Below, piece after piece: positions 49,664 to 64,000 of a stretch of DNA of 64,000 nucleotides; position 1 is the stretch's first letter, and every line of letters begins with the position of its first letter. The translations under genes were made by a program, and so were the position numbers. Origin of the DNA: an uncultured Saprospiraceae bacterium (GTDB taxonomy: Bacteria > Bacteroidota > Bacteroidia > Chitinophagales > Saprospiraceae); the NCBI GenBank assembly GCA_937950315.1, contig CALFDU010000021.1, forward strand, positions 1-64,000, in the 5' to 3' direction. A model generated the notes under the pieces. It saw only the letters and a list, made by a program, of their open reading frames with translations. It was not told the origin of the DNA and made no database searches.

Positions 49664-50407
49664 ATGAAAAAATTTCTAGTAGCAATAATATTTTTAAGTA
49701 TCAGCCTATCAACATTTGCGCAAAGCTTAAATGGTGTAATCGTATACAATCGAAAGGTCAATTACGTGTCGATTATGACTAGGCTTCCGTTTTTGACTTC
49801 GGAAGAAATAGATCGAGTCAAACTCACCTGGGGTAATAATTCTGATAATAAGGGAACTAATTATGTTTATTTTTTTAATGAAGCACAATCTCTTTATACG
49901 CAGAGTGAAGAAGAAAATGAAGGAGGCTATTCCTGGTCTGAAGAAAAGTATGTTTTGCAAAGAGATCATAAAAAGAAGACAGTTAATGACTGGAGGGAGG
50001 TCTTGGGTAAACGTTATTTGGTTGAAGATGATTTGCCTAAGTATAAATGGAAAATATTGAATGAGATTAAGGAGATTGAGGGTTATCTCTGTATGAAAGC
50101 TGAAACCTATGATCCTGTAAAAGATCAAACCATTCATGCTTGGTTTTCAGATGGAATTATATTTTCTGGCGGACCTGAAGGTTTTGCTGGGTTGCCAGGG
50201 ATGATTTTAGAACTAAACATCAATGATGGAGACGTGGTTGTTACCGCAACCGATATAAAATTGACGCCTGATAAAGTTGACATTCCTTTACCTAAAAAGA
50301 TGAAAGGAAAGTCAATAGATATTCAGGGATTTGATAGTATCATAAGTATGTTTATTGCTGAATCGATAGCTGCCGAACGAAACCCTTACTGGAGAATTAG
50401 ATATTAA
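49664..50407 (+). CDS. GLPGLI-family secreted protein
   Basis: I start at the ATG at 49664, which gives the signal peptide MKKFLVAIIFLSISLSTFAQS; seven upstream in-frame codons overlap the end of the barrel gene. The 247-residue protein contains the family motif as FAGLPGMILELN near residue 180. The family name comes from this block. Members sit beside TonB-receptor-like barrels and their function is unknown. The neighbour relation here suggests they work together in uptake or sensing of one compound. Confidence 0.88.
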   Translation: MKKFLVAIIFLSISLSTFAQSLNGVIVYNRKVNYVSIMTRLPFLTSEEIDRVKLTWGNNSDNKGTNYVYFFNEAQSLYTQSEEENEGGYSWSEEKYVLQRDHKKKTVNDWREVLGKRYLVEDDLPKYKWKILNEIKEIEGYLCMKAETYDPVKDQTIHAWFSDGIIFSGGPEGFAGLPGMILELNINDGDVVVTATDIKLTPDKVDIPLPKKMKGKSIDIQGFDSIISMFIAESIAAERNPYWRIRY

Positions 50408-50444
50408 ATATGGAATTAAGAATGGTTTTCAATACCTTAAGGGA

Positions 50445-51422
50445 ATGAAAAATCGTAGAGCTTTTATAAAAACTGCAAGCATTTTTGGTATTGCAATGCC
50501 CTTGGCCTCATGTCACTCAAATTCAAATACCAACAATCAAAAATCGCAGGAAGGTGTTAAGCCAATTATTATATCTACTTGGGAACATGGTTTGGATGCA
50601 AATAAAGTAGGATTCGAAATTTTGAAAAATGGCGGTTCGGCAATCGACGCTGTTGAGAAAGGAGTTGTAGTTGTAGAAAACGATCCCACCAATCAGACTG
50701 TAGGAATTGGCGGATTTCCTGATAGAGATGGTAATGTAACGCTGGATGCATGCATTATGAAAGGTGACGGAGGTTGCGGTTCTGTGGCATTTCTACAAGA
50801 AATAAAAAATCCAATTTCAGTAGCCAGAAAAGTCATGGAAGAAACTCCACATATTATGCTGGTTGGATCTGGAGCAAAGAAATTTGCTTTAGAGCAAGGA
50901 TTCAAAACAGAAAATTTATTGACAGAGCAGACCAAGAAAGACTATCTAGAATGGTTAGAAACGGAGAACTACAGTCCTGAGATTAATATTGAAAATCATG
51001 ATACAATTAGCACATTGGCGCTTGACGCAAATGGTAAAATTGCAGGTGCGTGTACAACAAGTGGAGCAGCTTGGAAAATGCATGGAAGAGTAGGAGATAG
51101 TCCATTGATAGGAGCAGGTTTATTTGTAGATGAAGAAGCTGGAGCTGCAGCTGCTACAGGACTAGGCGAGGCGGTAATCCGGACTGCGGGAAGTGCTATG
51201 GTTGTTGAGGCAATGAGAAATGGGTTAAGTCCTTATGATGCATGTAAAGAAGTGGTAGATAGAATTAGAAAAAAACATGCAACGTTGAAAGATTTGCAAG
51301 TTGGATTTGTTGCATTAGATATGAAAGGGAATTATGGCGCATACAGTATCCATCCTGGTTTTAATTACGCAATTGGAACTATCAATGGTCATACTCTTTT
51401 TGATGCCAAATCAATGTTCTAA
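50445..51422 (+). CDS. Asparaginase-like Ntn hydrolase (N4-(beta-GlcNAc)-L-asparaginase type)
   Basis: The 325-residue product has a twin-arginine-like signal (NRRAFIKTASIFGIAMPLASC) ending in a possible lipobox. The precursor should self-cleave before the catalytic Thr in NHDTISTLALD near residue 185, giving alpha and beta chains. GSAIDAVEKGVVVVENDP and GDSPLIGAGLFVDEEAGAAAATGLGE are family blocks. Relatives split the sugar-asparagine link of N-glycans or cleave isoaspartyl bonds; which one applies is not certain. It lies 37 bp after the GLPGLI gene and may be in its operon. Confidence 0.87.
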   Translation: MKNRRAFIKTASIFGIAMPLASCHSNSNTNNQKSQEGVKPIIISTWEHGLDANKVGFEILKNGGSAIDAVEKGVVVVENDPTNQTVGIGGFPDRDGNVTLDACIMKGDGGCGSVAFLQEIKNPISVARKVMEETPHIMLVGSGAKKFALEQGFKTENLLTEQTKKDYLEWLETENYSPEINIENHDTISTLALDANGKIAGACTTSGAAWKMHGRVGDSPLIGAGLFVDEEAGAAAATGLGEAVIRTAGSAMVVEAMRNGLSPYDACKEVVDRIRKKHATLKDLQVGFVALDMKGNYGAYSIHPGFNYAIGTINGHTLFDAKSMF

Positions 51423-51429
51423 AAAGAAT

Positions 51430-51461
51430 AAAAGAGAGACAACTTTCGTCGACTCTCTTTT
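51430..51461. terminator. Probable terminator after asparaginase-like gene
   Basis: AAAAGAGAG and CTCTCTTTT form a 9-bp stem around a 14-base loop, 8 bp after the stop codon. The long loop and AT-rich stem make it weaker than the others in the window. Confidence 0.5.
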
Positions 51462-51510
51462 AAAGGGGTTGGAATTGATCTTCTATAATGGAAGTGGAAC
51501 TTGTTCTTTA

Positions 51511-51876
51511 CTAGTTTACAGTTAAATTCATAAATTGTGGGGTGTCCACTCCTTCGAGAATAAAGCCAACTTTGTAGTCTCCTTTTTCAAATTGAGATAA
51601 ACCAAGACTTACTTCGTCAGATCCAATTGGTACCATCATTTCGAGCTCTCCGTCGTTTTTATAAATTTGTACCATTGTTACTGGATTTTCGAGAATGAAA
51701 TCCATCATTTTATTGGCAGTATTATATGAAGAGAATAAAATATAATTTCTTTCTGAGTCGACTTCTATAGTAGCTTCTACATCTGCATGCTTGAATAGTT
51801 CGGTAGGACCGCTTGTCGCAAATATGCTTGAAGAAATTCCGAATAATGTAATTAAAACAAATACTATATTTTTCAT
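51511..51876 (-). CDS. Small secreted protein, unknown function
   Basis: The 121-residue product has a clear signal peptide (MKNIVFVLITLFGISSSIFA) and a mature part of about 100 residues with alternating beta strands (VTMVQIYKNDGELEMMVPIG, GDYKVGFILEG). The strand order resembles the small beta-sandwich of T9SS sorting tails but lacks the PNP start motif. I do not recognise the family. It is convergent with the asparaginase-like gene. Confidence 0.65.
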   Translation of the reverse strand: MKNIVFVLITLFGISSSIFATSGPTELFKHADVEATIEVDSERNYILFSSYNTANKMMDFILENPVTMVQIYKNDGELEMMVPIGSDEVSLGLSQFEKGDYKVGFILEGVDTPQFMNLTVN

Positions 51877-52213
51877 GTGTTTGATTATTAAGTCTTTTGT
51901 TAGGTATGCTATAAAGACATATTGGGAGTATGTGTACCCTGATTGACCATAGTTACATCAGGTATACAAAATGATTACAACAGCACTACGGATTGAATTT
52001 TTCCTTCGATTTATGATAATCAGTTGACATATTCTGTAAGAGAATGTATTACTTACCTCGGCGCATGTGATTGTTGTAGATTTCCCTTAGGATAGATGGT
52101 TTCTGTATTCCTTGTTTGTAAGAAGCCCTTTAAAATCAATGAGTTATATATATAGATATCTAAACTTTGGTTACCTTCGTTGCACAAATAATAGATTCAT
52201 TACAAAAAAGAAT
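51877..52213. other. 337-bp intergenic region with inverted repeats
   Basis: No gene is seen between the small secreted protein and the DEAD-box helicase. The region has an imperfect dyad: CCTGAT at 51938-51943 facing ATCAGG at 51957-51962, with partly matching TGTGTAC and GTATACA flanks. A smaller dyad, GTAAG at 52036-52040 and CTTAC at 52052-52056, also lies here. The helicase promoter may be near TACCTTCG at about 52172, a variant -7 element. Confidence 0.4.
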
Positions 52214-53563
52214 ATGACCTTTAAGGAGTTAGGATTGAATGAGAAGTTGCTGGAAGGCCTATCATATATGGGTTTTGAAGAAGCTACTCCGATTCAGGAG
52301 CAAGCTATTCCCAAAATCATCGAGGGCAAAGACTTGTTGGCGTGTGCACAAACTGGGACAGGAAAAACGGCCGCATTTATTTTGCCAGTATTAAATCAAT
52401 TGACTGGGAAAAGTGGAGATAAAATTAAAGCGTTGGTTGTGTGTCCTACAAGAGAGTTGGCGCTTCAAATTGAGAGACAAATTCAAGCATTTTCCTACTT
52501 TGTTGATCTTGCTTCCATCGCTGTTTATGGAGGTGGAGATGGTCATGATTTTGAAACACAAAAAAGGGCACTTTCAAAGGGAACAGAAATTATCGTAGCA
52601 ACTCCTGGTAAATTGATATCACACCTAAATATGGGTTATGTTGATTTTTCGGAATTAGAATACTTTATTCTTGATGAAGCAGATAGAATGTTAGACATGG
52701 GATTCTATGATGATATTCAACAAATTGCAAGTCATGTAAAAAATAAGAAGCAAACATTACTTTTCAGCGCAACGATGCCACCTAAAATTAGAAAGCTTTC
52801 TGAAAGTATTTTGATCGATCCGGATTCTATAAGTATTGCAATATCTAAGCCGGCAAAAGGAGTCTTGCAAGCAGCTTATTTAACGTATGACAGGCAAAAA
52901 GCTCCTTTGATCAGAGGCTTGATTGCTGAAAAACCAGCCTATGAAAGTATCATCATTTTCACTTCTACCAAGAAGAAAGTAGGAGAGATAGTAAGGGCAT
53001 TACAAGGAAATGGATACAAAGTACAGGCTGTTTCTTCTGACCTCGTACAAAAAGATAGAGAAGATGCACTTAAAAGATTCCGATCAAAGGAAACGCGTGT
53101 CATTGTGGCAACCGATGTATTGAGTCGAGGTATCGATATCAAAGGCATTAACTTGGTTATTAATTATGATGTTCCTGGTGATGCTGAAGATTATATTCAT
53201 AGAATCGGCCGTACAGCAAGAGCAGATAGCACTGGTGTTGCTTTGACTCTTGTTAATGAAGAAGATATGTACAAGTTTCACCGAATCGAACAATTGATTG
53301 AGTCGGAAGTAAACAAAGCTCCTTTGCCACCAAAGTTGGGAGAAGGACCAAAGTGGGATCCTAAACCATCATATGGCGGTGGCGGAAGAGGAAGAGGTAA
53401 AGGTGGTGGTAGAGGCAACAACAGAGGAAGGAGTTCGTCTAATAAAGGAAAATCTCGTTCTGGAGGAAGCCGAGGGAAAGGCGGAAGTAGTAGAGGTGGT
53501 AGAAACTCAACTAACAAATCTAAAGGAGGACCTTCAAACAACTCAGGTCGCAACAAACGCTAA
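52214..53563 (+). CDS. DEAD-box RNA helicase with Gly/Arg-rich tail
   Basis: I start at the ATG at 52214 (MTFKELGLNEKLLEGLSYMGF), which gives the usual Q-motif position; the 34 upstream codons are not helicase-like. The 449-residue protein has the motifs ACAQTGTGKTAAF, PTRELALQ, DEADRMLD, SATMP and HRIGRTAR. The last 70 residues are a low-complexity tail rich in Gly, Arg, Lys and Ser (RGRGKGGGRGNNRGR), which probably binds RNA. The class matches RhlE-type helicases that act in ribosome assembly or RNA decay, especially in the cold. Confidence 0.93.
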   Translation: MTFKELGLNEKLLEGLSYMGFEEATPIQEQAIPKIIEGKDLLACAQTGTGKTAAFILPVLNQLTGKSGDKIKALVVCPTRELALQIERQIQAFSYFVDLASIAVYGGGDGHDFETQKRALSKGTEIIVATPGKLISHLNMGYVDFSELEYFILDEADRMLDMGFYDDIQQIASHVKNKKQTLLFSATMPPKIRKLSESILIDPDSISIAISKPAKGVLQAAYLTYDRQKAPLIRGLIAEKPAYESIIIFTSTKKKVGEIVRALQGNGYKVQAVSSDLVQKDREDALKRFRSKETRVIVATDVLSRGIDIKGINLVINYDVPGDAEDYIHRIGRTARADSTGVALTLVNEEDMYKFHRIEQLIESEVNKAPLPPKLGEGPKWDPKPSYGGGGRGRGKGGGRGNNRGRSSSNKGKSRSGGSRGKGGSSRGGRNSTNKSKGGPSNNSGRNKR

Positions 53564-53593
53564 AATACAATACAGTAATTTTAATTTTCGTAG

Positions 53594-54064
53594 ATGGCTA
53601 AGTATCGCTTATTGACAAACCAAGAGTTGGTTGAGATGAAAACAGAATTTATCAACTATCTCGTAGTTAATGGGATAGCCGCTGATGACTGGAAAAAGAT
53701 GTTGGCCAATGAACCTGACAAGGCCAAAGAAATTGTAGATCTTTTTAGTGATGTTGTTTTTGAAAAGATTTTAAGGAAAGTGAACTTTGTACTGCGTCAA
53801 GGGAAAAAGGAAATTGTCGCTTTCCATTGTATGGAGAAAACAATTGAAATGTGCGGACTGGTGGCAGGTCCGGATATTAAAGTGGATTTTACAGATAATG
53901 AAACCATTGCAAAATTAATTGCCAATCCGATCAAAGGATTAGAAACAGTTCATGGTGAAAAAGAATATTCAAAGGTTCGCGAACTTGAAATATTCGAATT
54001 GACTCAACAGGGAGGAATGATTTCAGATGGCAACGTCTTCAATGCCTTGAAATCAATTCTTTGA
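53594..54064 (+). CDS. DUF6495-like conserved protein
   Basis: The 156-residue cytoplasmic protein begins MAKYRLLTNQELVEMKTEFINYLVVNGI. It resembles a Bacteroidota family I recall as DUF6495; the family name is from memory. It has no known motif, signal peptide or membrane helix. The N-terminal half is helical and the second half has beta strands around FVLRQGKKEIVAFHCMEK. It follows the helicase after 30 bp, possibly on the same transcript. It overlaps the convergent TonB receptor gene by 12 bp. Confidence 0.68.
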   Translation: MAKYRLLTNQELVEMKTEFINYLVVNGIAADDWKKMLANEPDKAKEIVDLFSDVVFEKILRKVNFVLRQGKKEIVAFHCMEKTIEMCGLVAGPDIKVDFTDNETIAKLIANPIKGLETVHGEKEYSKVRELEIFELTQQGGMISDGNVFNALKSIL

Positions 54065-56128
54065 TTTGTATTCAAACTTATAACGCACACTTATAAAATA
54101 ACTTCTGCCTCTTCCCACCAATTGATTGTTGATATTTGTGTCTAGAGCATGATTGGCACCGGGGTCAATTTGATTAATATCTGCATACACCACATTCATA
54201 ATATTTCGGACTCCAACATTCAGGTTTATTCTATCATTAAACAAACTTGAAAAGAATGTGACATCAATAAATTGATAACCTTGGGTAATGTTTTGTTTCA
54301 ATTCATCATTTTCAATGAAATATCGAGGAACATCTCCTAGGAGCCTGTGAGTGAATACACCACCAAAATTCATGTTCTTTGGTTCGAATCGAAAGTTAAG
54401 TGTATTATCAATTACTTGATTGAAACTAGGAGATTCTCGTATTTCTGAAATATTATTATACCAATAACTTAATCCAAAGTTGTTGGATAATGAAAATGCT
54501 TTGTACTGAAGATTTACATCTGTTGAAATTCCATGTACAGAGAAATTGTTTAGGTTCAAATATTGAAATTTGAGTTGTTCAAATTCACCTAAAATGATCT
54601 TGTTAGTAATGTTTGTTTTGTAAGCTTTTACAACTCCTGAAAAATTTATTTTTTCAAAGGTAGGTTCATAAGATATACTAAGATTAAAGTCATTGGTCAA
54701 CTCTGGAAGCAATTCCTGATTTCCAATAACAAAGTGATTGACATCAATAAAATTGATATACAATTCCTTTAAGCTTGGACTTCTAAAACCTCTAGAGTAT
54801 CCTCCTCGTAGTCTCCAATCGTCACTTATTTTATGTTGTACTTGGATAGAAGGAGAAAATTGTGAGCCATAAATGCTATGTCGCGTGATTCTTGTTCCTG
54901 CTGAAGCTGTGGTGTTTTTTAGACTATATTTAGCATCTAGAAATATGCCATACTCTAGGCTTTTGACCTTACTCGAGTCTTGTTGACTTAGATCAATAAC
55001 TCTATCTCCAGATACATGCTCCTGATTTATTTGAATTCCGGCTAAAAGACTTAAGTTATTAATTGGACTAAATGATGCACTGGCTTTACCAAAGTATGCT
55101 CGGAATAAGGATTCGTCAAAATTTGTGAAGTCACCATTGAATTCATTGGTTTCAAATTCAAATCGCTCCTGTTGAAGAGTTCGTTGAAAATTATTAACTG
55201 CAATGGTTGTATTAAGACTTACATTGTTTAGAGCTCCTTCGTACACTAGACTATAATCACTTCTGTTGGTGTGATAAAATTCATCAAATGAATAAGGACG
55301 GAAAGTAGGACGTCTTAATTCTCCAAAACTTGATACTTCTTCATCCATGAAAGAATATTTGAAACTTATAGAGTTTATGTCGTCAATAAAATATCGAGTG
55401 TGCGCGAATGCATTTATTCGTTCTTTCGGATTCCATGGATAAACCTTTCTTCTGATGTTAGATTCTTCATTGATAGCCACCGTTTCATAGATTCTCAATG
55501 AATCAGTTTCAAAAGGATTATCTAGCAAGTAACTACCTCCAAAATTGAACATGAAATCATTAATTTTTACTCCGGTATTGATCGAATAATTCTGAACAGT
55601 AGGTTGTTCGAAAACAGAATTGATATCAATAGTTAGAGGACTCAATTGAGATTTCTTACTTATTAAATTGATAACACCACCAGCAGCATTGTTTCCATAA
55701 ATGATGGATTGAGGGCCTTCAATTATTTCTATTTGCTCAATATTAATCATTGATATTTGAGAAAGATCCAATGCACCGTCTTGTCTTCCAATAACCGGGA
55801 CACCATCGATAAGTATTGCAATGTTATCAGATCCGATTCCTCTCATTTTTGCAGAAGTTCCAAGGATAGGGTCGTAGTTGATTCTTATGCTTGAAAGTTG
55901 GGTAAGTACCTGATCTAATTGGGTGAATCCTTTTCTCTCTATTTCTTCTTTCTTTATAACCTTAACTAAATGTACTGAGTTCTTTACTTCTGTCAGATTG
56001 TGTTGAGAAGTAATAACAACATCTTCAATATTGATACTATAAGCGAAAGTGTCAATCTCTGATTGTTGTGCACCCAACTTAATAACTGTAATTAGAATGC
56101 TAATGAATATTATATATATCTGCTTCAC
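54053..56128 (-). CDS. TonB-dependent receptor, probable heme or iron uptake
   Basis: The 691-residue receptor has a signal peptide, a plug with NIAILIDGVPVIGRQDGALDLSQI and EIIEGPQSIIYGNNAAGGVINLISKK, and a 22-strand-type barrel ending in RSYFISVRYKF. The barrel motif GFRSPSLKELY, followed by NQELLPELTNDF, matches the heme/colicin receptor group (HmuR- and BtuB-like). Its start overlaps the AraC regulator gene by 4 bp, and a HmuY-like gene lies on the other side. Heme as substrate is therefore the best guess, though vitamin B12 or a siderophore cannot be ruled out. Confidence 0.88.
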   Translation of the reverse strand: MKQIYIIFISILITVIKLGAQQSEIDTFAYSINIEDVVITSQHNLTEVKNSVHLVKVIKKEEIERKGFTQLDQVLTQLSSIRINYDPILGTSAKMRGIGSDNIAILIDGVPVIGRQDGALDLSQISMINIEQIEIIEGPQSIIYGNNAAGGVINLISKKSQLSPLTIDINSVFEQPTVQNYSINTGVKINDFMFNFGGSYLLDNPFETDSLRIYETVAINEESNIRRKVYPWNPKERINAFAHTRYFIDDINSISFKYSFMDEEVSSFGELRRPTFRPYSFDEFYHTNRSDYSLVYEGALNNVSLNTTIAVNNFQRTLQQERFEFETNEFNGDFTNFDESLFRAYFGKASASFSPINNLSLLAGIQINQEHVSGDRVIDLSQQDSSKVKSLEYGIFLDAKYSLKNTTASAGTRITRHSIYGSQFSPSIQVQHKISDDWRLRGGYSRGFRSPSLKELYINFIDVNHFVIGNQELLPELTNDFNLSISYEPTFEKINFSGVVKAYKTNITNKIILGEFEQLKFQYLNLNNFSVHGISTDVNLQYKAFSLSNNFGLSYWYNNISEIRESPSFNQVIDNTLNFRFEPKNMNFGGVFTHRLLGDVPRYFIENDELKQNITQGYQFIDVTFFSSLFNDRINLNVGVRNIMNVVYADINQIDPGANHALDTNINNQLVGRGRSYFISVRYKFEYKSKN

Positions 56129-57003
56129 TTTGTTTGAATATATTTCTTTGGTGTAATGTCAAATTTGGATTTAAAGGCACTGATGAAATGACTTGGGTTG
56201 TTGTAGCCTAGTTCATAAGCAACCTCTTTAATTTTAAAGTTTCCTGTGTCAAGCATCGCTTTTCCATGATTCATTTTGTGATCCAATAGATACTGAAACA
56301 AAGTTGATCCATAAAGACTTTTAAATCCTTCTTTTAATCTGTGTTCGTTAAGTCCTACTTCAGTGGCCAATGCTGAAGTAATTGGAGGTTCTTTCATGCG
56401 GGCAATTAATATGTCCTTCGCCTTTTTTATTTTCTTGACGCTATCTTCATCTTGTAAATATGGACAAGATGTATTTTCTTCTTTTGCTTGCCTAGAAAAG
56501 TAAATACTTAGAATTTCAAGAGATTTGGCATATCTGAAAATGTCTCCTGTTTTTCCGGTGTCATTTATTTCTAAAATTTGTTTCAATACCAAATTTAGAT
56601 TAGTACTAATATGGTCTTTTTTATAAATCTTTTGATTTACATTTTCACTATTTAAAAATTCTAGCTCATTGCTGCTGTCTAAAAATAGCTGATGTATTTT
56701 TTCTAGCGAACAGAATAAGAAAATGAGTTGTGTGTCTTCTTCAGTTGTAATGGTAGGCTTTAGTATTTCAGTCGGATTATAGAAAAAGCAATTGTTGCCC
56801 GCGGACAAAGGCATGTTGTAAGAACCTCCATAAAAAGCAAAATTCATTGCTCCTTTTACGCAGAAAAAGTATTGAACTACTTTTTCATCAACCTCAATGT
56901 CCAATAGGTTTTTCGACTTTTCATCATATTGAATAAGAACCAAACCATCCCTAAGTAAGTGTTCTCTCCATTTGCTTTTATCGTTATTTTTACAAACTAT
57001 CAA
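56125..57003 (-). CDS. AraC-family transcriptional regulator of the uptake locus
   Basis: The 292-residue protein has an N-terminal cupin-like sensing region and a C-terminal AraC double helix-turn-helix (residues about 195-290), with GLNEHRLKEGFKSLYGSTLFQYL and IKEVAYELGYNNPSHFISAFKSKFDITPKKY. The helix-turn-helix most resembles the PchR group, which senses iron-siderophore or heme. The stop codon overlaps the TonB receptor start by 4 bp. It is likely to activate the receptor and the divergent HmuY-like gene from dyads at 57095-57162. Confidence 0.88.
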   Translation of the reverse strand: MIVCKNNDKSKWREHLLRDGLVLIQYDEKSKNLLDIEVDEKVVQYFFCVKGAMNFAFYGGSYNMPLSAGNNCFFYNPTEILKPTITTEEDTQLIFLFCSLEKIHQLFLDSSNELEFLNSENVNQKIYKKDHISTNLNLVLKQILEINDTGKTGDIFRYAKSLEILSIYFSRQAKEENTSCPYLQDEDSVKKIKKAKDILIARMKEPPITSALATEVGLNEHRLKEGFKSLYGSTLFQYLLDHKMNHGKAMLDTGNFKIKEVAYELGYNNPSHFISAFKSKFDITPKKYIQTK

Positions 57004-57044
57004 AAGAATATAGATTTTGGCTATTTAGATTAAAATGATAAAAG

Positions 57045-57052
57045 TAAAGGTA
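57045..57052 (-). promoter_or_regulatory. Candidate -7 element of AraC regulator operon
   Basis: The minus strand reads TACCTTTA, one base from the TAnnTTTG consensus, about 42 bp upstream of the regulator start codon. Confidence 0.35.
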
Positions 57053-57094
57053 AAACATATGATTTTATGTTGTTTATGCTGATGAAAGTAATTT

Positions 57095-57117
57095 TTATTT
57101 AGAATAAGTCTAAATAA
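57095..57117. promoter_or_regulatory. Perfect 9-bp dyad, probable operator of the heme locus
   Basis: TTATTTAGA (57095-57103) and TCTAAATAA (57109-57117) are exact inverted copies around a 5-base spacer. The site lies mid-way between the divergent regulator and HmuY-like genes. Its form suits a dimeric metal- or iron-responsive repressor, perhaps of Fur or DtxR type; this is inference. Confidence 0.7.
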
Positions 57118-57127
57118 TGTAATTTTC

Positions 57128-57162
57128 AAATACCGTTATTCATTTCTTGTTTAGCGGTATTT
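57128..57162. promoter_or_regulatory. Second perfect dyad between regulator and HmuY-like gene
   Basis: AAATACCG (57128-57135) and CGGTATTT (57155-57162) are exact inverted copies 19 bp apart, ending 18 bp upstream of the -7 element of the HmuY-like gene. This spacing and position fit an AraC-type activator, and no -33 TTG is present at the normal distance. Confidence 0.6.
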
Positions 57163-57180
57163 TTATGAAGAAAGGTATAA

Positions 57181-57188
57181 TACATTTG
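57181..57188 (+). promoter_or_regulatory. -7 promoter element of HmuY-like gene
   Basis: TACATTTG is an exact TAnnTTTG match. Because it overlaps the GTG at 57188, that codon cannot be the start, which supports the ATG at 57212. Confidence 0.6.
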
Positions 57189-57211
57189 TGACAAGAAATA
57201 AAAACACAATT

Positions 57212-58474
57212 ATGAGATTATTGATAATCACCTTTTTTGCATTAATTACAATAAGTACTGTAAGCGCTCAAGAAATTGATCAGATTTCTGTTGGAGCTGG
57301 CTACGGTTTACAGACATTTTATGATGTCGACTCAGGAGAGAAGACAGTTATAGATGGAGATCAATGGGATATCGCTTTTACGGTATTTGGATTTCAAGAT
57401 GCTGGTATATTTATAAATGAGTCTGCATCTTTAATGGGGGAAGAAATAGAATTGTATGACCTTGGCGCTGGAAATTTTTCTACTGCTGTGACAGAAGCTG
57501 ATTTGACAAATAGAATTTATAATAATGATAAGTCTTGGCAAAGTGGTGCCTTTAATGAAGGTAGAGACCCTGCTGACTTTTCAGATTTTGGATGGGGATT
57601 TTATAATCCTGCAACCATGTCAGTGACAGGCGTTAAGATGTTTGCTTTGAAATTAAGAAATGGAAAGATGATCAAGCTTCAGATAGAAGCAATAAATCTA
57701 ACTGAGTATACATTCAAATATGCTGATTTGGATGGATCTAACCAAAAAAGTGTTTCCTTTGATAAATCTGGATATTCGGGAAAACACTTGGCTTACTATT
57801 CTTTTGATTCAGAGGAAATGTTGGATTTAGAGCCAGATGGATGGGACCTTACCTATACAAGATATTCTACATACCTTGAAGCAGGTCCGGATGAAATCAT
57901 AAATTATATTGTTACGGGAATTCTTACTGCTGATGGCGTGCAAGTAGCGCAGGCTGATGGGATTGATCCTGTAAGTGTATCTGAATCAGATTACACATCT
58001 GATTATAGTTCTTCAACCGATGTTATTGGGTTTGACTGGAAGGACATTGATATTGCAACCCTACAATGGTCTTTAGTTTTAGATAGAGTATATTTTATAA
58101 AGACCGATGAAAATAAAACTTATAAGTTGCATTTTATTGACTTCGAAGGATCATCAACAGGTATAACTACATTTGAAAAATCTGAGGTGATGACTACATC
58201 AACTTATGATGTTTTCGAGTCAAATACCACTATCGGCAATGCATATCCTAATCCAACTCATGGAACTTTCTCTTTTGATTATGAGACAGAAAAGGCAGGT
58301 AAAATAGTGGTAAGTATCTATCAATTAGACGGAAAGAAATTGTATTCTCAAGTGATGGATACGCATGTTGGTCGGAATGTTATTAGCATCGATGATTTTA
58401 CTGTTGGCGGAAACTATTTTTTAGTTCTTGATAATGGAGAACGAGTATATAGTCAGCAATTGATCATCAAGTAA
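57212..58474 (+). CDS. Double HmuY-like heme-binding protein with T9SS type A sorting tail
   Basis: I start at the ATG at 57212, which gives a signal peptide (MRLLIITFFALITISTVSAQ); the GTG eight codons upstream lies inside the promoter. The 420-residue protein has two HmuY-like domains. The first (about 24-185) has DQWDIAFTVFGF and VKMFALKLRNGKMIKLQI. The second (about 190-335) has LAYYSFDSEE, DGWDLTYTRYSTYL and DRVYFIKTDENKTYKLHFIDF. A T9SS type A tail follows from about residue 343 (AYPNPTHGTFSF ... SQQLIIK). HmuY proteins bind heme and pass it to a TonB receptor. Known HmuY is a lipoprotein; this one is predicted to be T9SS cargo. Confidence 0.85.
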   Translation: MRLLIITFFALITISTVSAQEIDQISVGAGYGLQTFYDVDSGEKTVIDGDQWDIAFTVFGFQDAGIFINESASLMGEEIELYDLGAGNFSTAVTEADLTNRIYNNDKSWQSGAFNEGRDPADFSDFGWGFYNPATMSVTGVKMFALKLRNGKMIKLQIEAINLTEYTFKYADLDGSNQKSVSFDKSGYSGKHLAYYSFDSEEMLDLEPDGWDLTYTRYSTYLEAGPDEIINYIVTGILTADGVQVAQADGIDPVSVSESDYTSDYSSSTDVIGFDWKDIDIATLQWSLVLDRVYFIKTDENKTYKLHFIDFEGSSTGITTFEKSEVMTTSTYDVFESNTTIGNAYPNPTHGTFSFDYETEKAGKIVVSIYQLDGKKLYSQVMDTHVGRNVISIDDFTVGGNYFLVLDNGERVYSQQLIIK

Positions 58475-59035
58475 TTACAATAAATCAATCATAGTATCAA
58501 AATCATGATTGAAACTAATACCATCATTCGTTTGCGCTGTGAAGTTGATAGTAAGTGGACCATCAGTTACTGACATACTTTCTACAAGAGAAGTAGGGAA
58601 GCCTACCGATACTTCACAGAACGTACGCGTTGAACAAGTGTTTGTTATTTCAATAGATGAAAACTGATTGAAGTCGCGCAAATTCGTTCCTGCGTTGAAA
58701 GTATTGGCGCCTATTGTAACATCTTTGCTGAAACTAATACCCAAGGTAGATTCATCTAGAGAATTCAATACACTACTGAAGCAATCTTGACCATAAACTT
58801 CTCCTATAGGATTGAAATCTGTATAAACTAAATCTGTATCTGGGAAATAGTTAAGAATAAATCCTGTTCTTATGACTTCATTATTCACAGCCTCTGGATT
58901 AACATCGTAATCAAGGAGAATAACTGTATTGATCATCCCATTTAATGCTGAATCTGATTCGCCGCAACAGCTTGAAATGATGACAGCTGATAGATAGGCT
59001 AGGAATAGAATAGAAAGTTTAGATGCAATCTTCAT
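58475..59035 (-). CDS. Lipoprotein of unknown function
   Basis: The 186-residue product has a lipoprotein signal ending in VIISSCCGESD, with two adjacent cysteines at the lipobox. The mature part is beta-rich with four further cysteines that could form disulfides. I do not recognise a family. Its stop codon abuts that of the HmuY-like gene, tail to tail, with no gap. A minus-strand -7 element (TACTTTTG) lies 10 bp upstream of its start. Confidence 0.65.
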   Translation of the reverse strand: MKIASKLSILFLAYLSAVIISSCCGESDSALNGMINTVILLDYDVNPEAVNNEVIRTGFILNYFPDTDLVYTDFNPIGEVYGQDCFSSVLNSLDESTLGISFSKDVTIGANTFNAGTNLRDFNQFSSIEITNTCSTRTFCEVSVGFPTSLVESMSVTDGPLTINFTAQTNDGISFNHDFDTMIDLL

Positions 59036-59044
59036 TTTTTATTG

Positions 59045-59052
59045 CAAAAGTA
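59045..59052 (-). promoter_or_regulatory. -7 promoter element of lipoprotein gene
   Basis: The minus strand reads TACTTTTG, an exact TAnnTTTG match, 9 bp before the ATG at 59035. Confidence 0.5.
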
Positions 59053-59113
59053 TAATATTCTATAGGTTATATCCATTATCATAAGGATTAAACCATAATT
59101 TCAGCAATAGATA

Positions 59114-59743
59114 TTAGATAAGTGGGCTAGGATCTGGGCAATTATTACGAAAAAAATCAATTTTTAATGCTGATGATACTCCAGGGTAATCTCCAGCATA
59201 ATCTCCTAGATTGTTAATCAATTGCAGATGAAGATGAGGAGGCCAACCACCATTTTCAGCATGTCCTCCAATTTTGCAGAATGAATCTCCTTTTGCAATT
59301 TTCATATTTGATTTGAGCATGCTACAATGCCAGGAGCTTAAGTGACCATAAAGGCTATAAAATTTTTGATTGCCAACCTTGTGTTTTAGTATAACGGTAT
59401 GGCCGTAGTCTAAGGATGCTTCATTGTACTGAATGGAATGAACAACACCTTCTAGTGGAGCATACACCATTGTGTTTTCTTGCGCCCACAAATCTATTCC
59501 TAAATGAATATCTCTCCTAGTTGCACCTTTCCCAAACAATTCTTCATTTGAATAAAAGAAACGTTTTTCTAAATATCCACCATAGTGAATTATCGTAGGG
59601 TCAGTTGTTGGCAGTTCTTCAAGATATTGATACCAGTTCTCCGAATTGCTTTTTCCCAAATCTCCATTTATACTTAAATCTAATTTTTTATAAACGAAGT
59701 CACCATTTCCTAACACAGGGAAACACCATTCTTTTTTGATCAT
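59114..59743 (-). CDS. M23-type metallopeptidase domain protein without signal peptide
   Basis: The 209-residue protein is mostly one M23 (LytM) domain. Zinc ligands are His and Asp in RRDIHLGIDLWAQ, and the HxH motif is in PPHLHLQLIN; the typical YSLYGHLSSW is present. No signal peptide or membrane helix precedes the domain (it begins MIKKEWCFPVLGNGDF), which is unusual for a wall-cutting enzyme. Cytoplasmic M23 domains occur fused to aminotransferase and kinase domains in some bacteria, and this could be a stand-alone relative. The substrate is unknown. Confidence 0.82.
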   Translation of the reverse strand: MIKKEWCFPVLGNGDFVYKKLDLSINGDLGKSNSENWYQYLEELPTTDPTIIHYGGYLEKRFFYSNEELFGKGATRRDIHLGIDLWAQENTMVYAPLEGVVHSIQYNEASLDYGHTVILKHKVGNQKFYSLYGHLSSWHCSMLKSNMKIAKGDSFCKIGGHAENGGWPPHLHLQLINNLGDYAGDYPGVSSALKIDFFRNNCPDPSPLI

Positions 59744-59833
59744 AACTTTAAACTGAAAATAAGGTTCGTTAATTTTATCTTGTGTGGTAAGTTATGAAAT
59801 TTACCGATTCCACATTTAAAATTTTAAGCAAAG

Positions 59834-60373
59834 GTGTCTTCTATAATTGAAACAAAACGACTCCAACTGAGACCGATAACATTGGAAGATACAATTCTGC
59901 TTTTTGAAATACGATCTGATAAAGTGGTGATGCGATATGTAGAACGACCATTAATGAATAAAATGTCAGAGGCAAAATCGCTTTGTGCAAATATTTTAGA
60001 TTTATGCGGACAAAATATTGCTTGGTTTTGGGTACTCGAACTCAAGTCTACAAAACAAGCAATAGGCACTATTACGCTTTGGAATTACGAAACTAAATTT
60101 AAAACGGCTGAAATTGGATTCATGATGAAGCAAAACTTTCAAGGATTGGGTCTTATGAAAGAAGCAGCATCCCATGTATGTCAATTTGCTTTTGATATTT
60201 TGAATCTAAATATGATCGAAGCATATACCCGACCAGAAAATCTAGCTTCATGTTCGGTTTTAAGATCTTTAGGATTCGGTAAATTCAAACAGTTAAATAA
60301 TAATGTAATCTTTAATAATCGAACTTGGGATACGATAATCTTCCATTTGCATAGAAATCAACTTAAAAAGTAA
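59834..60373 (+). CDS. GNAT-family N-acetyltransferase (RimJ/RimL type)
   Basis: The 179-residue product is a GNAT enzyme that acetylates an amine with acetyl-CoA. It has TKRLQLRPITLEDTILLFEIRSD, typical of the RimJ/RimL and ribosomal-protein acetyltransferase group, the CoA-binding loop as NFQGLGLMKEAA, and ENLASCSVLRSLGF. The start is a GTG at 59834; there is no ATG in the first 30 codons. The substrate cannot be told from the sequence. Confidence 0.85.
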   Translation: MSSIIETKRLQLRPITLEDTILLFEIRSDKVVMRYVERPLMNKMSEAKSLCANILDLCGQNIAWFWVLELKSTKQAIGTITLWNYETKFKTAEIGFMMKQNFQGLGLMKEAASHVCQFAFDILNLNMIEAYTRPENLASCSVLRSLGFGKFKQLNNNVIFNNRTWDTIIFHLHRNQLKK

Positions 60374-60415
60374 GAAGTCAATAGATAATCGATATATAAT
60401 GTCTAAGTCATTTAT

Positions 60416-60423
60416 TATATTTG
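60416..60423 (+). promoter_or_regulatory. -7 promoter element of ASPIC/UnbV gene
   Basis: TATATTTG is an exact TAnnTTTG match, 31 bp upstream of the ATG at 60455. Confidence 0.5.
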
Positions 60424-60454
60424 ATTAAACCCTGTCATGTAATATTCAACTAAA

Positions 60455-62161
60455 ATGAGAACCAATCTTATCATCTTCTACCTTATTTTGTTATCCACTT
60501 TCCTTTTTGGGCAGGATTTTACTCGACAAGATGGAAATTTTAGCATAGTTAATTCGTTTGGAGGTGGGACTCCATTTGGCGGTGGTACAGTGAGCTTTGC
60601 TGATTTTAATGAAGATGGCTTAGATGATTTGACCTTTGGCACTAGAACTGGATTGCCAATACATTTTTATGAGAACACTGGTGATGGATTTGAATTGGTT
60701 GATCCACCTTTTGTAGATAACTTTTCAGATCACAGACAAATTTTATGGATCGACTATGATGATGATGGCGATCGAGATATTTTTGTAGCTGCGCTGGATG
60801 GACCCAATAAGCTTTATGAAAATGATGGCAGTATGTCATTTACAGATGTTTCTATTTTGAGAGGATTGTCTACACAAAATGTTTTGACGGAAGGGGGAAA
60901 CTTTGGAGATTTAAACAAAGATGGATTCCTTGATTTGTATATAACCAATTATGATGATGATGGAATCACATTGAATGGTCATGAAAATGAAATGTACAGA
61001 TGGAACCCGCAATCAGCTTCCTATGAAGATGTCACACTTTCATCTTCAACTGGTAATGGTGTAAGAACTAGTTTCTGTACTGCTTTTTTTGACTTCGATA
61101 TGGACAATGATTTGGATATGTATGTCATTAATGATTTTCATGCATTTGAAAATTCATTGTATATGAATATTGGTAATTTTCAATTCATTGATGTTTCTGT
61201 TCCTTCCATGTCTAATATCGCTATTGAATCCATGAATGCCGGAATCTCTGATTACGATAATGATGGAGATTTTGATATTTATATTACCAATGTTGAAGAT
61301 GCAGCCTTGTTGAGAAACAATGGTGACAATACCTTTACAGATGTAGCAGCACCTGCAGGAGTCTTAGCTCATGAGTGGTCTTGGACGGGTAATTTTTTCG
61401 ATTTTGATAATGATAGAGATGATGATCTTTATGTTTTGTCTCAAGTAAGTACTGAGCCTAATTATTTTTACGTAAATGTTAATGGAATATTTTCCGAGCC
61501 ATTGGCCAACAATGGTGGAATCACTGGTCAGGATAATCTTGAAGCGATTGCCAATGCTATAGGAGATGTAAACAATGACGGTAAATTGGATATTGCTATC
61601 TGCTCAAGAAATGATAATAATTACAGACTTTATGTAAATAATGAATTATCGGAAAACAACTTCATAAAGCTAAACCTAAAAGGTACTAGTTCTAATAATG
61701 CAGCGTATGGGGCATTGGTTGAATGTTGGATTAATGGCGCAAAAACCATCCAGCACAAACACTCTGCAGTATCATTTCACTGTCAGAACTCTGATTACTT
61801 ACACTTTGGTATAGAGCAAGCGACCTCTGTTGATTCGTTGGTTATAAAATGGCCTTTTGCCAATAATGTAGATGTGGTTTATTCCGCAGACATATTGGTG
61901 AATGGGATGAATGAAATCACAGAAGGTTCAGGCTTAACAAATTCATATTCACTCGAGATCTGCAAGCATACACACAATCTTGTGATCGATCCTATTCCTA
62001 GCCAGAATTATGGAGCTGTTTTGGATCTAATGGGAAACACGACAATATTAAGTGGCCATGACGTGTTGTTTCAGTCAGAAACATCAATCACATTAGATGC
62101 AGGATTTGAAGTAAAACTAGGTGCTGAGTTGTTAGCAGAAATAGAAGTTTGTGGAAATTAA
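60455..62161 (+). CDS. Secreted VCBS/FG-GAP-repeat protein with ASPIC/UnbV domain (CRTAC1-like)
   Basis: The 568-residue protein has a signal peptide ending in LFGQ and a beta-propeller of about six FG-GAP/VCBS repeats. Each repeat carries a calcium-type Asp loop (DYDDDGDRD, DLNKDGFLD, DFDMDNDLD, DYDNDGDFD, DFDNDRDDD, DVNNDGKLD). An ASPIC/UnbV domain follows at about residues 400-490. The C-terminus (about 510-568) resembles the '3-coathanger stack' module (ILSGHDVLFQSETSITLDAGFEVKLGA), found in secreted Bacteroidota proteins. It probably acts outside the cell in calcium-dependent adhesion; the ligand is unknown. Confidence 0.88.
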   Translation: MRTNLIIFYLILLSTFLFGQDFTRQDGNFSIVNSFGGGTPFGGGTVSFADFNEDGLDDLTFGTRTGLPIHFYENTGDGFELVDPPFVDNFSDHRQILWIDYDDDGDRDIFVAALDGPNKLYENDGSMSFTDVSILRGLSTQNVLTEGGNFGDLNKDGFLDLYITNYDDDGITLNGHENEMYRWNPQSASYEDVTLSSSTGNGVRTSFCTAFFDFDMDNDLDMYVINDFHAFENSLYMNIGNFQFIDVSVPSMSNIAIESMNAGISDYDNDGDFDIYITNVEDAALLRNNGDNTFTDVAAPAGVLAHEWSWTGNFFDFDNDRDDDLYVLSQVSTEPNYFYVNVNGIFSEPLANNGGITGQDNLEAIANAIGDVNNDGKLDIAICSRNDNNYRLYVNNELSENNFIKLNLKGTSSNNAAYGALVECWINGAKTIQHKHSAVSFHCQNSDYLHFGIEQATSVDSLVIKWPFANNVDVVYSADILVNGMNEITEGSGLTNSYSLEICKHTHNLVIDPIPSQNYGAVLDLMGNTTILSGHDVLFQSETSITLDAGFEVKLGAELLAEIEVCGN

Positions 62162-62649
62162 TTGAAGTTTACTTCCTGTGCGGCAGATTCATGCAATTCT
62201 AAAAAATCAACGATTGGACTTAAGTAGCTGCTATCAATTGTAAGATTGTAACTATTTCTAATGAAGATTTGTCGATCAATGATGTCTCCACAATACAGCT
62301 CCAATTCATTTTGTGCCAATATCTGATACTTATTTACCCAATGGTTTTTTTGCAATGTTTTAAATTCCTTCACAGCTTTTTTACATTCACCTAAGTACCG
62401 ATATAAAAGAAGATAATTCTTGAAAAAGTATCTGATCTTTTGAAACTTGATCAGAACCGGATAATGTTTTCTAAGAATAGTAGGTGAAATATCATGAAGT
62501 CCTATTTCTTTTTCCAATTCTGCATTTTCCAAATACCAAAGGATGATTCTTGATGGAGATAAACCATCTGAACTCTTGTTCTGAATTTCCATCAAAGCAT
62601 CTCTGGACCTGATGGAAAGGATATCTAATTTTGCAGGAATGAAGATCAT
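62158..62649 (-). CDS. Conserved-looking cytoplasmic protein, unknown function
   Basis: The 163-residue product is not recognised. It lacks a signal peptide, is helix-rich, and has a basic-aromatic core (KFQKIRYFFKNYLLLYRYLGE). Its 3' end overlaps the ASPIC/UnbV gene by 4 bp. The -7 element TATTTTTG on the minus strand ends 4 bp before the ATG, so its mRNA should be leaderless, and a perfect dyad covers both. These control signals support its being a real gene. Confidence 0.65.
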   Translation of the reverse strand: MIFIPAKLDILSIRSRDALMEIQNKSSDGLSPSRIILWYLENAELEKEIGLHDISPTILRKHYPVLIKFQKIRYFFKNYLLLYRYLGECKKAVKEFKTLQKNHWVNKYQILAQNELELYCGDIIDRQIFIRNSYNLTIDSSYLSPIVDFLELHESAAQEVNFN

Positions 62650-62670
62650 ATTACAAAAATATGTAATATG
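62647..62670. promoter_or_regulatory. Perfect dyad over promoter and start codon of unknown gene
   Basis: CATATTAC (62647-62654) and GTAATATG (62663-62670) are exact inverted copies around 8 bases. The dyad covers the start codon and the -7 element (62654-62661), an ideal place for a repressor to block transcription. Confidence 0.55.
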
Positions 62671-62857
62671 AATGGAATAATAGAATATTGTGCTTTATTT
62701 ATTCATTTTGTCCAATATAATAAGCCGATTAAATACTTGAATAACTTAGAATGCATCAGTTGTTCATTATCGTTTCAATCTGATTTCAGTTTTTTTTTCG
62801 CTTGCGCAAATGTCTAAGGATGAGTGGTTTTAATCGTGAATAGAGAGCAAAAAAAAA

Positions 62858-62878
62858 GAAGGTCAAAATGACCTCCTT
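62858..62878 (-). terminator. Terminator after tRNA-Lys
   Basis: On the minus strand AAGGAGGTCA and TGACCTTC pair around a short T loop, followed by a run of T. It lies 4 bp beyond the 3' end of tRNA-Lys. The 62671-62857 stretch shows nothing else. Confidence 0.8.
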
Positions 62879-62881
62879 TTG

Positions 62882-62954
62882 TGATCGGTCTGGGGCTCGA
62901 ACCCAGGACCCACGCCTTAAAAGGGCGTTGCTCTACCAACTGAGCTAACCGATC
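62882..62954 (-). tRNA. tRNA-Lys (anticodon TTT)
   Basis: The minus strand folds as a full cloverleaf. Acceptor arms GATCGGT and ACCGATC pair perfectly. The D arm includes TAGCTCAGTTGGTAGAGC, the anticodon stem ACGCC/GGCGT encloses loop CTTTTAA (anticodon TTT), and the T arm contains GGTTCGAGCCC. The discriminator is A and CCA is not encoded. Confidence 0.96.
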
Positions 62955-62971
62955 GACCTTTAATCGAAGTG

Positions 62972-62979
62972 CAAAGATA
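62972..62979 (-). promoter_or_regulatory. -7 promoter element of tRNA-Lys
   Basis: The minus strand reads TATCTTTG followed by CAC, the same extended form as at tRNA-Arg, about 17 bp before the tRNA 5' end. Confidence 0.6.
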
Positions 62980-63003
62980 GTTGCATTTTTAAATAAATAT
63001 AAT

Positions 63004-63023
63004 TTTCAATAAGGAAATTGAAA
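63004..63023 (-). terminator. Weak hairpin after rnz
   Basis: TTTCAAT and ATTGAAA are exact inverted 7-bp arms around 6 bases, 20 bp beyond the rnz stop codon and followed on the minus strand by an AT-rich tail. It is AT-rich, so it may be only a weak terminator. Confidence 0.4.
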
Positions 63024-63042
63024 TGATTTTTAATCTATTGAA

Positions 63043-63987
63043 TTATGAGCTTGAAGGGACTTTAATTTTTGGGAAATCGAGCATAAAACCATCGTAACCC
63101 TTCAACACATTTGTAAAGACAGAAGAGGCTTCTTCAACAAGAGAGTCTACTTTTCTATATCTACTTGAATAGTGTCCAATAATAAGATTTTGCACATTGG
63201 CTTTCAATGCAATTTGCCCTGCCTCCAAAGCTGTTGAATGCATTCTTTCCTTAGCGAGATGAGAAAGTTCGTGTAAGTAGGTTGTTTCGTGATACAGATA
63301 TTGAGATTCAGAAATATACTTGCATATATCTTCATCGTAAACAGTGTCACTGCAATAACTATAAGATCTTGGTAGAGAAGGATTTATACAGCTATCTTGC
63401 CATTTAATGATTTCTTTATTGTTTCTTATTACATCAATTCCTTGTTTGATCTTTTTGATTTCAGGAATACTTAATTGAAACTTTTCAATCGCTTCTTTTT
63501 TAATGTTTAATTGATGAGCCTTTTCCTGAAATCGATAGCCGTACGTGGGAATTCTATGTTTTAATGGGAAGGCAGAAACCTCAAAATCATCATTGGTGAA
63601 AACAACTTCTGTTTGGTTAGAATGATCCAACTCAATAAACGATAAAGGATAATTTATTCTGGAATAGGTATGAGCTATAATATCATCAACGAAAGCCTTA
63701 ATTCCTTTTGGACCTATAACTGTCAAAGCTTTTGAACGGTTTGCATTGCTAAAGGATGTAAGTAATCCTGGCAGTCCAAAGCAATGGTCTCCATGTAAAT
63801 GGCTGATGCATATGGTGTTAATCTTATTTGCCTTGAGCTTGTATTCGGAGATTCTTATCTGACATGCCTCTCCGCAATCAATTAAGAAAGCAGCATTATC
63901 ATACATCAAGTATTGACATGAAGTTATTCTTCCATATCCTGGTCCAGCAGCGTTGGCACCTAATATGGTCAAATGGAATTTTTTCAT
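63043..63987 (-). CDS. rnz: Ribonuclease Z
   Basis: The 314-residue metallo-beta-lactamase-fold enzyme has the zinc motif SHLHGDHCFGLPGLL near residue 62, a second-site region with RSYSYCSDTVYDE, and the closing histidine in LIIGHYSSRY. It trims the 3' ends of tRNA precursors, needed here because the two tRNA genes do not encode CCA. On the minus strand an upstream frame (ending Glu-Glu-stop) appears to overlap its start codon as ATGA, so another gene probably precedes it beyond the window. Confidence 0.94.
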   Translation of the reverse strand: MKKFHLTILGANAAGPGYGRITSCQYLMYDNAAFLIDCGEACQIRISEYKLKANKINTICISHLHGDHCFGLPGLLTSFSNANRSKALTVIGPKGIKAFVDDIIAHTYSRINYPLSFIELDHSNQTEVVFTNDDFEVSAFPLKHRIPTYGYRFQEKAHQLNIKKEAIEKFQLSIPEIKKIKQGIDVIRNNKEIIKWQDSCINPSLPRSYSYCSDTVYDEDICKYISESQYLYHETTYLHELSHLAKERMHSTALEAGQIALKANVQNLIIGHYSSRYRKVDSLVEEASSVFTNVLKGYDGFMLDFPKIKVPSSS

Positions 63988-64000
63988 TCCTCTTCACCAT

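Follow-up and report, generated by a model that had tools for sequence, protein, structure and literature searches.

A tandem HmuY-domain protein with a predicted type IX secretion tail in an uncultured Saprospiraceae bacterium: architecture, relatives and possible role in heme capture

Genes and signals at the locus

The window, that is the whole stretch of DNA analysed, comprises 64,000 nt of contig CALFDU010000021.1 from an uncultured Saprospiraceae bacterium and contains a gene for a protein with two HmuY-type domains (D1 and D2) followed by a C-terminal sorting domain of the type IX secretion system (T9SS), with a regulator, a receptor and a putative lipoprotein encoded nearby (Table 1).

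Table 1. Position, strand and basis of the features described at the double-HmuY locus
Feature	Position	Strand	Basis and remarks
TonB-dependent receptor	54053..56128	-	Pfam, NCBIfam; beyond the AraC gene from the double-HmuY gene
Receptor His465 codon, FRSP...NH..GN..L loop	54734-54736	-	Receptor alignment
AraC-family regulator	56125..57003	-	Overlaps receptor start; divergent from double-HmuY gene
Fur-box-like palindrome ATTTAGA-ATAAG-TCTAAAT, ATTTAGAATAAGTCTAAAT	57097..57115	.	Divergent promoter; predicted
Presumed -7 promoter element, TAnnTTTG-type, TACATTTG	57181..57188	+	Read from sequence
Double-HmuY, T9SS-tailed protein gene	57212..58474	+	420 aa; ATG at 57212; ORF list, Pfam, NCBIfam
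Predicted N-terminal signal peptide, residues 1-20 (...VSAQ)	57212..57271	+	From sequence; putative cleavage site
HmuY domain 1 (D1), about residues 21-177	57272..57742	+	Pfam, profile alignment, model
Met136 codon, putative HmuY-family second heme-ligand position (Trp128+8, as Bvu Met172)	57617..57619	+	Alignment
HmuY domain 2 (D2), about residues 178-326	57743..58189	+	Pfam, profile; without His/Met at the ligand position
T9SS type A C-terminal sorting domain, residues 345-420	58244..58471	+	Pfam, NCBIfam
Putative lipoprotein, 186 aa	58475..59035	-	Convergent neighbour; membership in the system uncertain

The protein scores 38.4 bits with the Pfam family HmuY (PF14064; cut-off 27), the match falling into two stretches of which the best covers residues 192-321, and all four motifs quoted in the original prediction, including the pair WDIAFT and WDLTYTRY, are present in the ORF. 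The T9SS type A tail proposed at the same time is recognised by both Por_Secre_tail (30.6 bits, cut-off 27, residues 345-419) and TIGR04183, the sorting domain of type A cargo (38.5 bits, cut-off 23). The genome itself encodes T9SS machinery, SprA being found with 491.6 bits against 200 as a fragment match (model positions 6-512), and from these features secretion by the T9SS with cleavage of the tail is predicted. The last residue of the predicted signal peptide, Gln20, is kept in 58/62 aligned tailed relatives, and inspection of the N-terminus revealed no lipobox Cys, so that the lipid anchor typical of HmuY is absent. No other HmuY match was found in the 4.3 Mb draft genome (95.65% completeness), and the closest named relatives found, Saprospiraceae metagenome bins, are at most 36% identical. 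These sequence features place the protein in the HmuY family, as a double-domain, T9SS-exported variant that appears to have a single ligand position.

Only the AraC gene separates the double-HmuY gene from the TonB-dependent receptor, and such a receptor is present at all 40 HmuY loci examined. The solved structures closest to the receptor of the window are those of the colicin I and enterobactin receptors, which does not settle its substrate. No ORF of CobN size and no hmuTUV-like gene was recognised between positions 52000 and 64000 among the ORFs of 80 aa or more, seven of which were scanned with Pfam. The putative lipoprotein had no Pfam match; it adjoins the double-HmuY gene in two congeners (55 and 63% identical) and, beyond its own genome, was found in these two and weakly in one other, and for this reason it was rejected as a general partner. 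The RNA scan of positions 50000-64000 returned one tRNA gene (Rfam RF00005, 62882-62954, minus strand) and no riboswitch or other RNA. Further downstream, at 60455-62161 on the plus strand, lies a gene for an FG-GAP/ASPIC-UnbV repeat protein with a long C-terminal extension past the UnbV domain.

The divergent promoter between the AraC and double-HmuY genes carries a palindrome whose two 7-base half-sites are identical to those of the Fur box ATTTAGAATTATTCTAAAT, predicted from promoters of Riemerella anatipestifer, in which gel shifts with Fur were obtained on several promoters including that of hmuR (PMC5609570); the abstract of that paper gives an E. coli-type consensus instead of ATTTAGAATTATTCTAAAT. 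Control of the gene by Fur is probable on this basis, and two Fur-family genes are present in the genome. Searched exactly, TTTAGAN5TCTAAA occurs once in the genome, at this very site, and the reversed control pattern twice; with up to two mismatches the pattern has 58 sites and its reversed form 71, that is, no genome-wide excess. In a set of 61 tailed genes from which the window gene was left out, a palindrome with up to two mismatches lies upstream of 26, compared with 12/345 control ORFs, a background that may be overstated because these ORFs share loci and perhaps promoters with the tailed genes, and with 3/305 shuffled sequences; upstream of the other 35/61 it is absent at this threshold. 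The pattern TAnnTTTG, which we take to be the consensus of the -7 promoter element, is found upstream in all six intergenic stretches compared (window and five congeners).

Two HmuY domains and their predicted fold

With a reference profile built solely from 40 single-domain HmuY domains, hhalign gave a probability of 98.1 for D1 and likewise 98.1 for D2, and of 96.5 for D1 against D2. Because each half aligns alone to the single-domain profile, a chance resemblance of motifs does not explain the second copy, and the tandem arrangement originally predicted is upheld. The same profile, used in hmmsearch, detected D1 and D2 separately in many relatives, and on these profile comparisons both halves can be regarded as HmuY domains; in a six-frame search of the genome the D2 stretch alone reached 24.1 bits, below the Pfam cut-off. 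Searches of the PDB with phmmer found no HmuY chain, either with the full single protein or with D2 alone as query. The sole search type to reach HmuY there was a profile of 33 relatives (Pfam HmuY in 31/33, tail in 23/33), which matched P. gingivalis HmuY 3h8t at 7.4e-11 in two pieces, both of them on D2 and leaving out much of the middle of HmuY, where the ligand region lies.

A full-length AlphaFold2 model was obtained from 7 sequences, with a mean pLDDT of 73.4 and a pTM of 0.66. In structural alignment with VIA its top 7 rows all belong to the HmuY family (Z 13.5-10.9; next row 8.6), with 133-161 aligned residues at 2.9-4.7 A. Within this model the pLDDT of D1 is mostly 76-93, with lower values of 59 and 68 for two blocks of ten residues; when D1 is modelled alone the quality is poor (pLDDT 61.6), and HmuY-family chains again fill the first 7 of 300 VIA rows, at weak Z values of 4.7-5.8. 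The expectation that a predicted structure would resemble HmuY is therefore borne out by the best matches of the full model, the match of D1 alone being weak. Foldseek gave no match at E 0.001 or better for the D1-alone model and none at E <1 to HmuY. For the full model, one HmuY chain appeared among the 50 rows listed, at rank 49; the list was headed by viral envelope proteins, at a TM-score of about 0.15 and an rmsd above 25 A, which were read as chance beta-sheet matches and discarded.

The models also raise a somewhat doubtful alternative for the architecture, in which the repeats would be interleaved and each HmuY fold would draw on both domains: one would combine the N-terminal half of D1 with the C-terminal half of D2, the other the second half of D1 with the first half of D2, in a composite unit. 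It would account for the fact that all 7 HmuY chains span from residues 13-18 to 328-330 of the full model with just 133-161 aligned residues, and for the N-terminal half of D1 being modelled confidently solely in the full-length protein (pLDDT 76-87, versus <50 alone). Against it, the models derive from 6-7 sequences only, contacts within and between repeats are often confused in repeat proteins, and the ranges consist of first and last residues without coordinates. Interleaving concerns the architecture alone and is compatible with a role of the protein as a hemophore.

Duplication, relatives and receptor types

A tree built from 146 HmuY domains places D1 and D2 in clades of their own, with moderate supports (0.72 and 0.71; 0.98 for the two together), and the tailed domains cluster with a support of 0.87 within D1 and 0.45 within D2. 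Since the D1 and D2 clades each hold both tailed and untailed proteins, the duplication predates the split between the two forms, in agreement with the earlier view that it is not recent. An independent second duplication gave rise to 8 double-HmuY proteins of one distant family (f37; loci L091, L097, L103, L104, L110, L111, L115 and L118), which are nested among the single-domain HmuY with a support of 0.86.

Double-HmuY proteins are common. Full-length tailed relatives occur in 17/39 other related genomes (18 including one weaker match), and a profile of the untailed double form finds matches in 21/40 related genomes, the organism's own included, and in 123/296 genomes of the class, most of which have two; a PF14064 match of any kind is present in 59/198 genomes of a phylum sample. 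It follows that HmuY cannot be described as a single-domain protein only, as had been stated originally, nor as lipid-anchored only, a T9SS-secreted HmuY of F. columnare (C6N29_01035) being already in print (PMC9618737). In the related set, all 7 matching genomes outside the family of the window carry both forms, and inside this family 11 others have the tailed form only and 2 the untailed form only.

The tailed double HmuY, the receptor and the untailed double HmuY stand together at 33 of 40 loci, a proportion biased by the choice of most regions for having both forms listed close together and for which the genome-level counts (40 related, 198 phylum, 296 class) are a less biased guide. Of the remaining seven loci, 5 are without the tailed form, L171 lies at a contig end and L163, assigned to the tailed set by its length without a tail match, is unclear. 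The cluster of tailed double HmuY, TonB receptor and lipid-anchored double HmuY recurs across the class at loci L132 to L162, L169 and L170. The untailed proteins have an N-terminal Cys in 60/60 aligned sequences, as in lipoproteins; they also have a Met (40/60, reference position 89) and a His (31/60, position 225) of their own. In the draft genome of the window this anchored partner was not found, the tailed form being the only one.

A His in this kind of receptor loop is generally taken as a mark of heme receptors. The receptors of the window's type share the pattern FRxPxLKEL...F.D.NH.I.GN..L..E, with the loop His in 19/19 aligned sequences, whereas in the f37 type and in receptors adjacent to single-domain HmuY the sequence is FKAPxFRQLYLxFTNxxxGYSVFG or a near variant, without that His; in these alignments, hemophore and receptor subtypes go together.

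Heme ligands and possible function

In Bvu of Bacteroides vulgatus the iron is bound by Met145 and Met172 (PMC8911585; PMC11967795), and the histidines of HmuY are described as poorly conserved in its homologs, in which other residues may serve (PMC8911585). With the chain index of Bvu and HmuY matched to the numbering of these papers, Met172 falls eight residues after a Trp (Trp+8), the sole Met pair at the required spacing in the aligned stretch shown, and in D1 of the window protein the same position is Met136. In 62 tailed double-HmuY proteins this column has His in 42, Met in 5 and another residue or a gap in 15, and it is the only column rich in His/Met besides the start Met; the five Met belong to the window and four congeners, the fifth congener having Asn. 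The column emerged once single-domain HmuY proteins were aligned, and with the 62 tailed proteins, no His/Met column having been kept over 33 relatives before the alignment of canonical HmuY. In single-domain HmuY the matching column has His in 24/40 and Met in 2/40. His166 of P. gingivalis HmuY was considered as the equivalent of position 136 and rejected, as it lies at Trp+5 and not, like position 136 and Bvu Met172, at Trp+8.

The corresponding position of D2 has no His/Met in any of 28 tailed proteins, only 4/28 have one anywhere from W+5 to W+12, and no His/Met column of D2 reaches 30 percent in the 62 proteins; the two His of this domain, His192 and His307, are not conserved. In untailed double HmuY, Trp+8 has His/Met in 0/13 of D1 and 0/23 of D2. 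Because the Trp+8 counts differ, D1 of the tailed proteins seems to retain one ligand position that D2 has lost. A candidate His or Met ligand, originally to be sought in each domain, was thus found as Met136 in D1 and not in D2, and a candidate first axial ligand was found in neither. One such residue may be enough, to judge from the hemophore RhuH, in which a single His suffices as ligand (PMC11967795).

These results lead us to favour, with some but by no means full confidence, an iron-regulated hemophore exported via the T9SS as the best explanation, the sequence basis of which is the set of two HmuY-type domains, T9SS tail, adjacent receptor and palindrome, together with the conservation of this set. 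Under iron starvation Fur would release the divergent promoter, and the double-HmuY protein would cross the outer membrane by the T9SS, to be anchored at or released from the surface. In D1, Met136, which is His in most relatives, would then serve as axial ligand for one captured heme, and D2, its ligand lost, would be a structural or docking module. The receptor encoded next door would receive the heme and import it, powered by TonB; in the many relatives that encode a lipid-anchored double HmuY beside the receptor, this protein would probably be a second surface partner or a lid. Several observations argue against a hemophore: a first axial ligand was not found in D1 and 15/62 tailed relatives have neither His nor Met at position 136, the nearest solved receptors are not heme receptors, 35/61 tailed genes have no palindrome and the genome no excess of it at two mismatches, the D1-alone model is poor with a weak HmuY match, and deletion of hmuY in F. 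columnare left growth and virulence unaffected in the tests described (PMC9618737).

Whether one or two hemes are bound had been left between two options, namely two binding domains or one capture and one docking site. Both halves are complete HmuY domains by profile, as two hemes per protein would require, but the lack of any His/Met at Trp+8 of D2, their scarcity from W+5 to W+12 and the absence of a conserved column in this domain make that option improbable. Since D1 alone retains the second-ligand position, the likelier arrangement would be a single heme per protein and a docking or structural role for D2, and of the two options the second is preferred. Binding of an iron siderophore or other iron chelate by protein and receptor, instead of heme, is unlikely, if less so than two hemes. 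AraC regulators next to TonB receptors are typical of siderophore systems, and the regulator of this locus, the Cir/FepA-like receptor and the incomplete ligand pair would all suit this reading; it is countered, though by no single decisive point, by the binding of heme by the characterised HmuY proteins (PMC8911585; PMC9331221), by the column of His or Met where HmuY has its ligand and by the His in the receptor loop. Least probable is that the HmuY fold has no ligand here and serves a surface adhesin or a structural protein: 15/62 relatives do lack the ligand residue and many T9SS cargoes are adhesins, but the TonB receptor is a constant partner and the promoters have Fur-box-like sites.

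The favoured hemophore can be placed beside several described systems. With HmuY/HmuR of P. gingivalis and its family (Tfo, PinA, PinO, Bvu, BfrA, BfrB; PF14064) it shares the HmuY domain and fold matches, an adjacent TonB-dependent receptor, a Fur-type site and the ligand position of Bvu; it differs in having two domains instead of one, a T9SS tail and no lipid anchor, one ligand position, in D1 only, instead of the two axial His/Met of HmuY, Tfo and Bvu, and, compared with the classical hmuYRSTUV operon, no recognised hmuSTUV genes at the locus. The HmuY of F. columnare likewise combines an HmuY domain with Por_Secre_tail and is extracellular and T9SS-secreted, its domain number not being stated in the accessible text (PMC9618737); the tail alone is consequently not new. 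HfpY/HfpR of F. psychrophilum are, like the genes of the window, an HmuY-like protein and a TonB receptor without hmuSTUV; HfpY binds heme and is upregulated in low iron, but its identity to HmuY is described as low, and the available text mentions neither a double domain nor a T9SS tail (PMC9331221). RhuH of Riemerella anatipestifer is a Flavobacteriales hemophore with, similarly, a single His ligand by mutagenesis, but its structure is distinct from HmuY according to its authors and it is secreted in outer membrane vesicles (PMC11967795). The f37 lipoproteins have two HmuY domains per chain and an adjacent TonB receptor as well; unlike the window protein, they derive from a separate, later duplication and have a lipobox, no T9SS tail and another receptor type. 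In the open-licence literature of PubMed Central, no paper was found that describes the double-HmuY pair, which may be in print elsewhere.

A broader reading, which we put forward only tentatively, is that a two-tier branch of the Hmu system is widespread in the class Bacteroidia, in which the tailed double HmuY, its only heme site lying in D1, would capture heme off the membrane, the anchored double HmuY beside the receptor would act as lid or relay and the receptor subtype would have co-evolved; the repeats may interleave into one composite fold, and the lineage of the window would have lost the anchored partner, acquired the divergently encoded AraC regulator and replaced His by Met as the ligand.

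Double HmuY is a widespread yet little-described branch of a known heme-iron system, and the hemophores studied in Bacteroidota are for the most part single-domain lipoproteins from host-associated species. If the reading given here is true, much of the class relies on a HmuY that is double-domain, T9SS-exported and paired with an anchored one. Why HmuY doubled, and how heme passes from the mobile to the anchored hemophore and on to the receptor, would then become a testable question, and position 136 would offer a clean comparison of His and Met as ligands together with a question of iron regulation.
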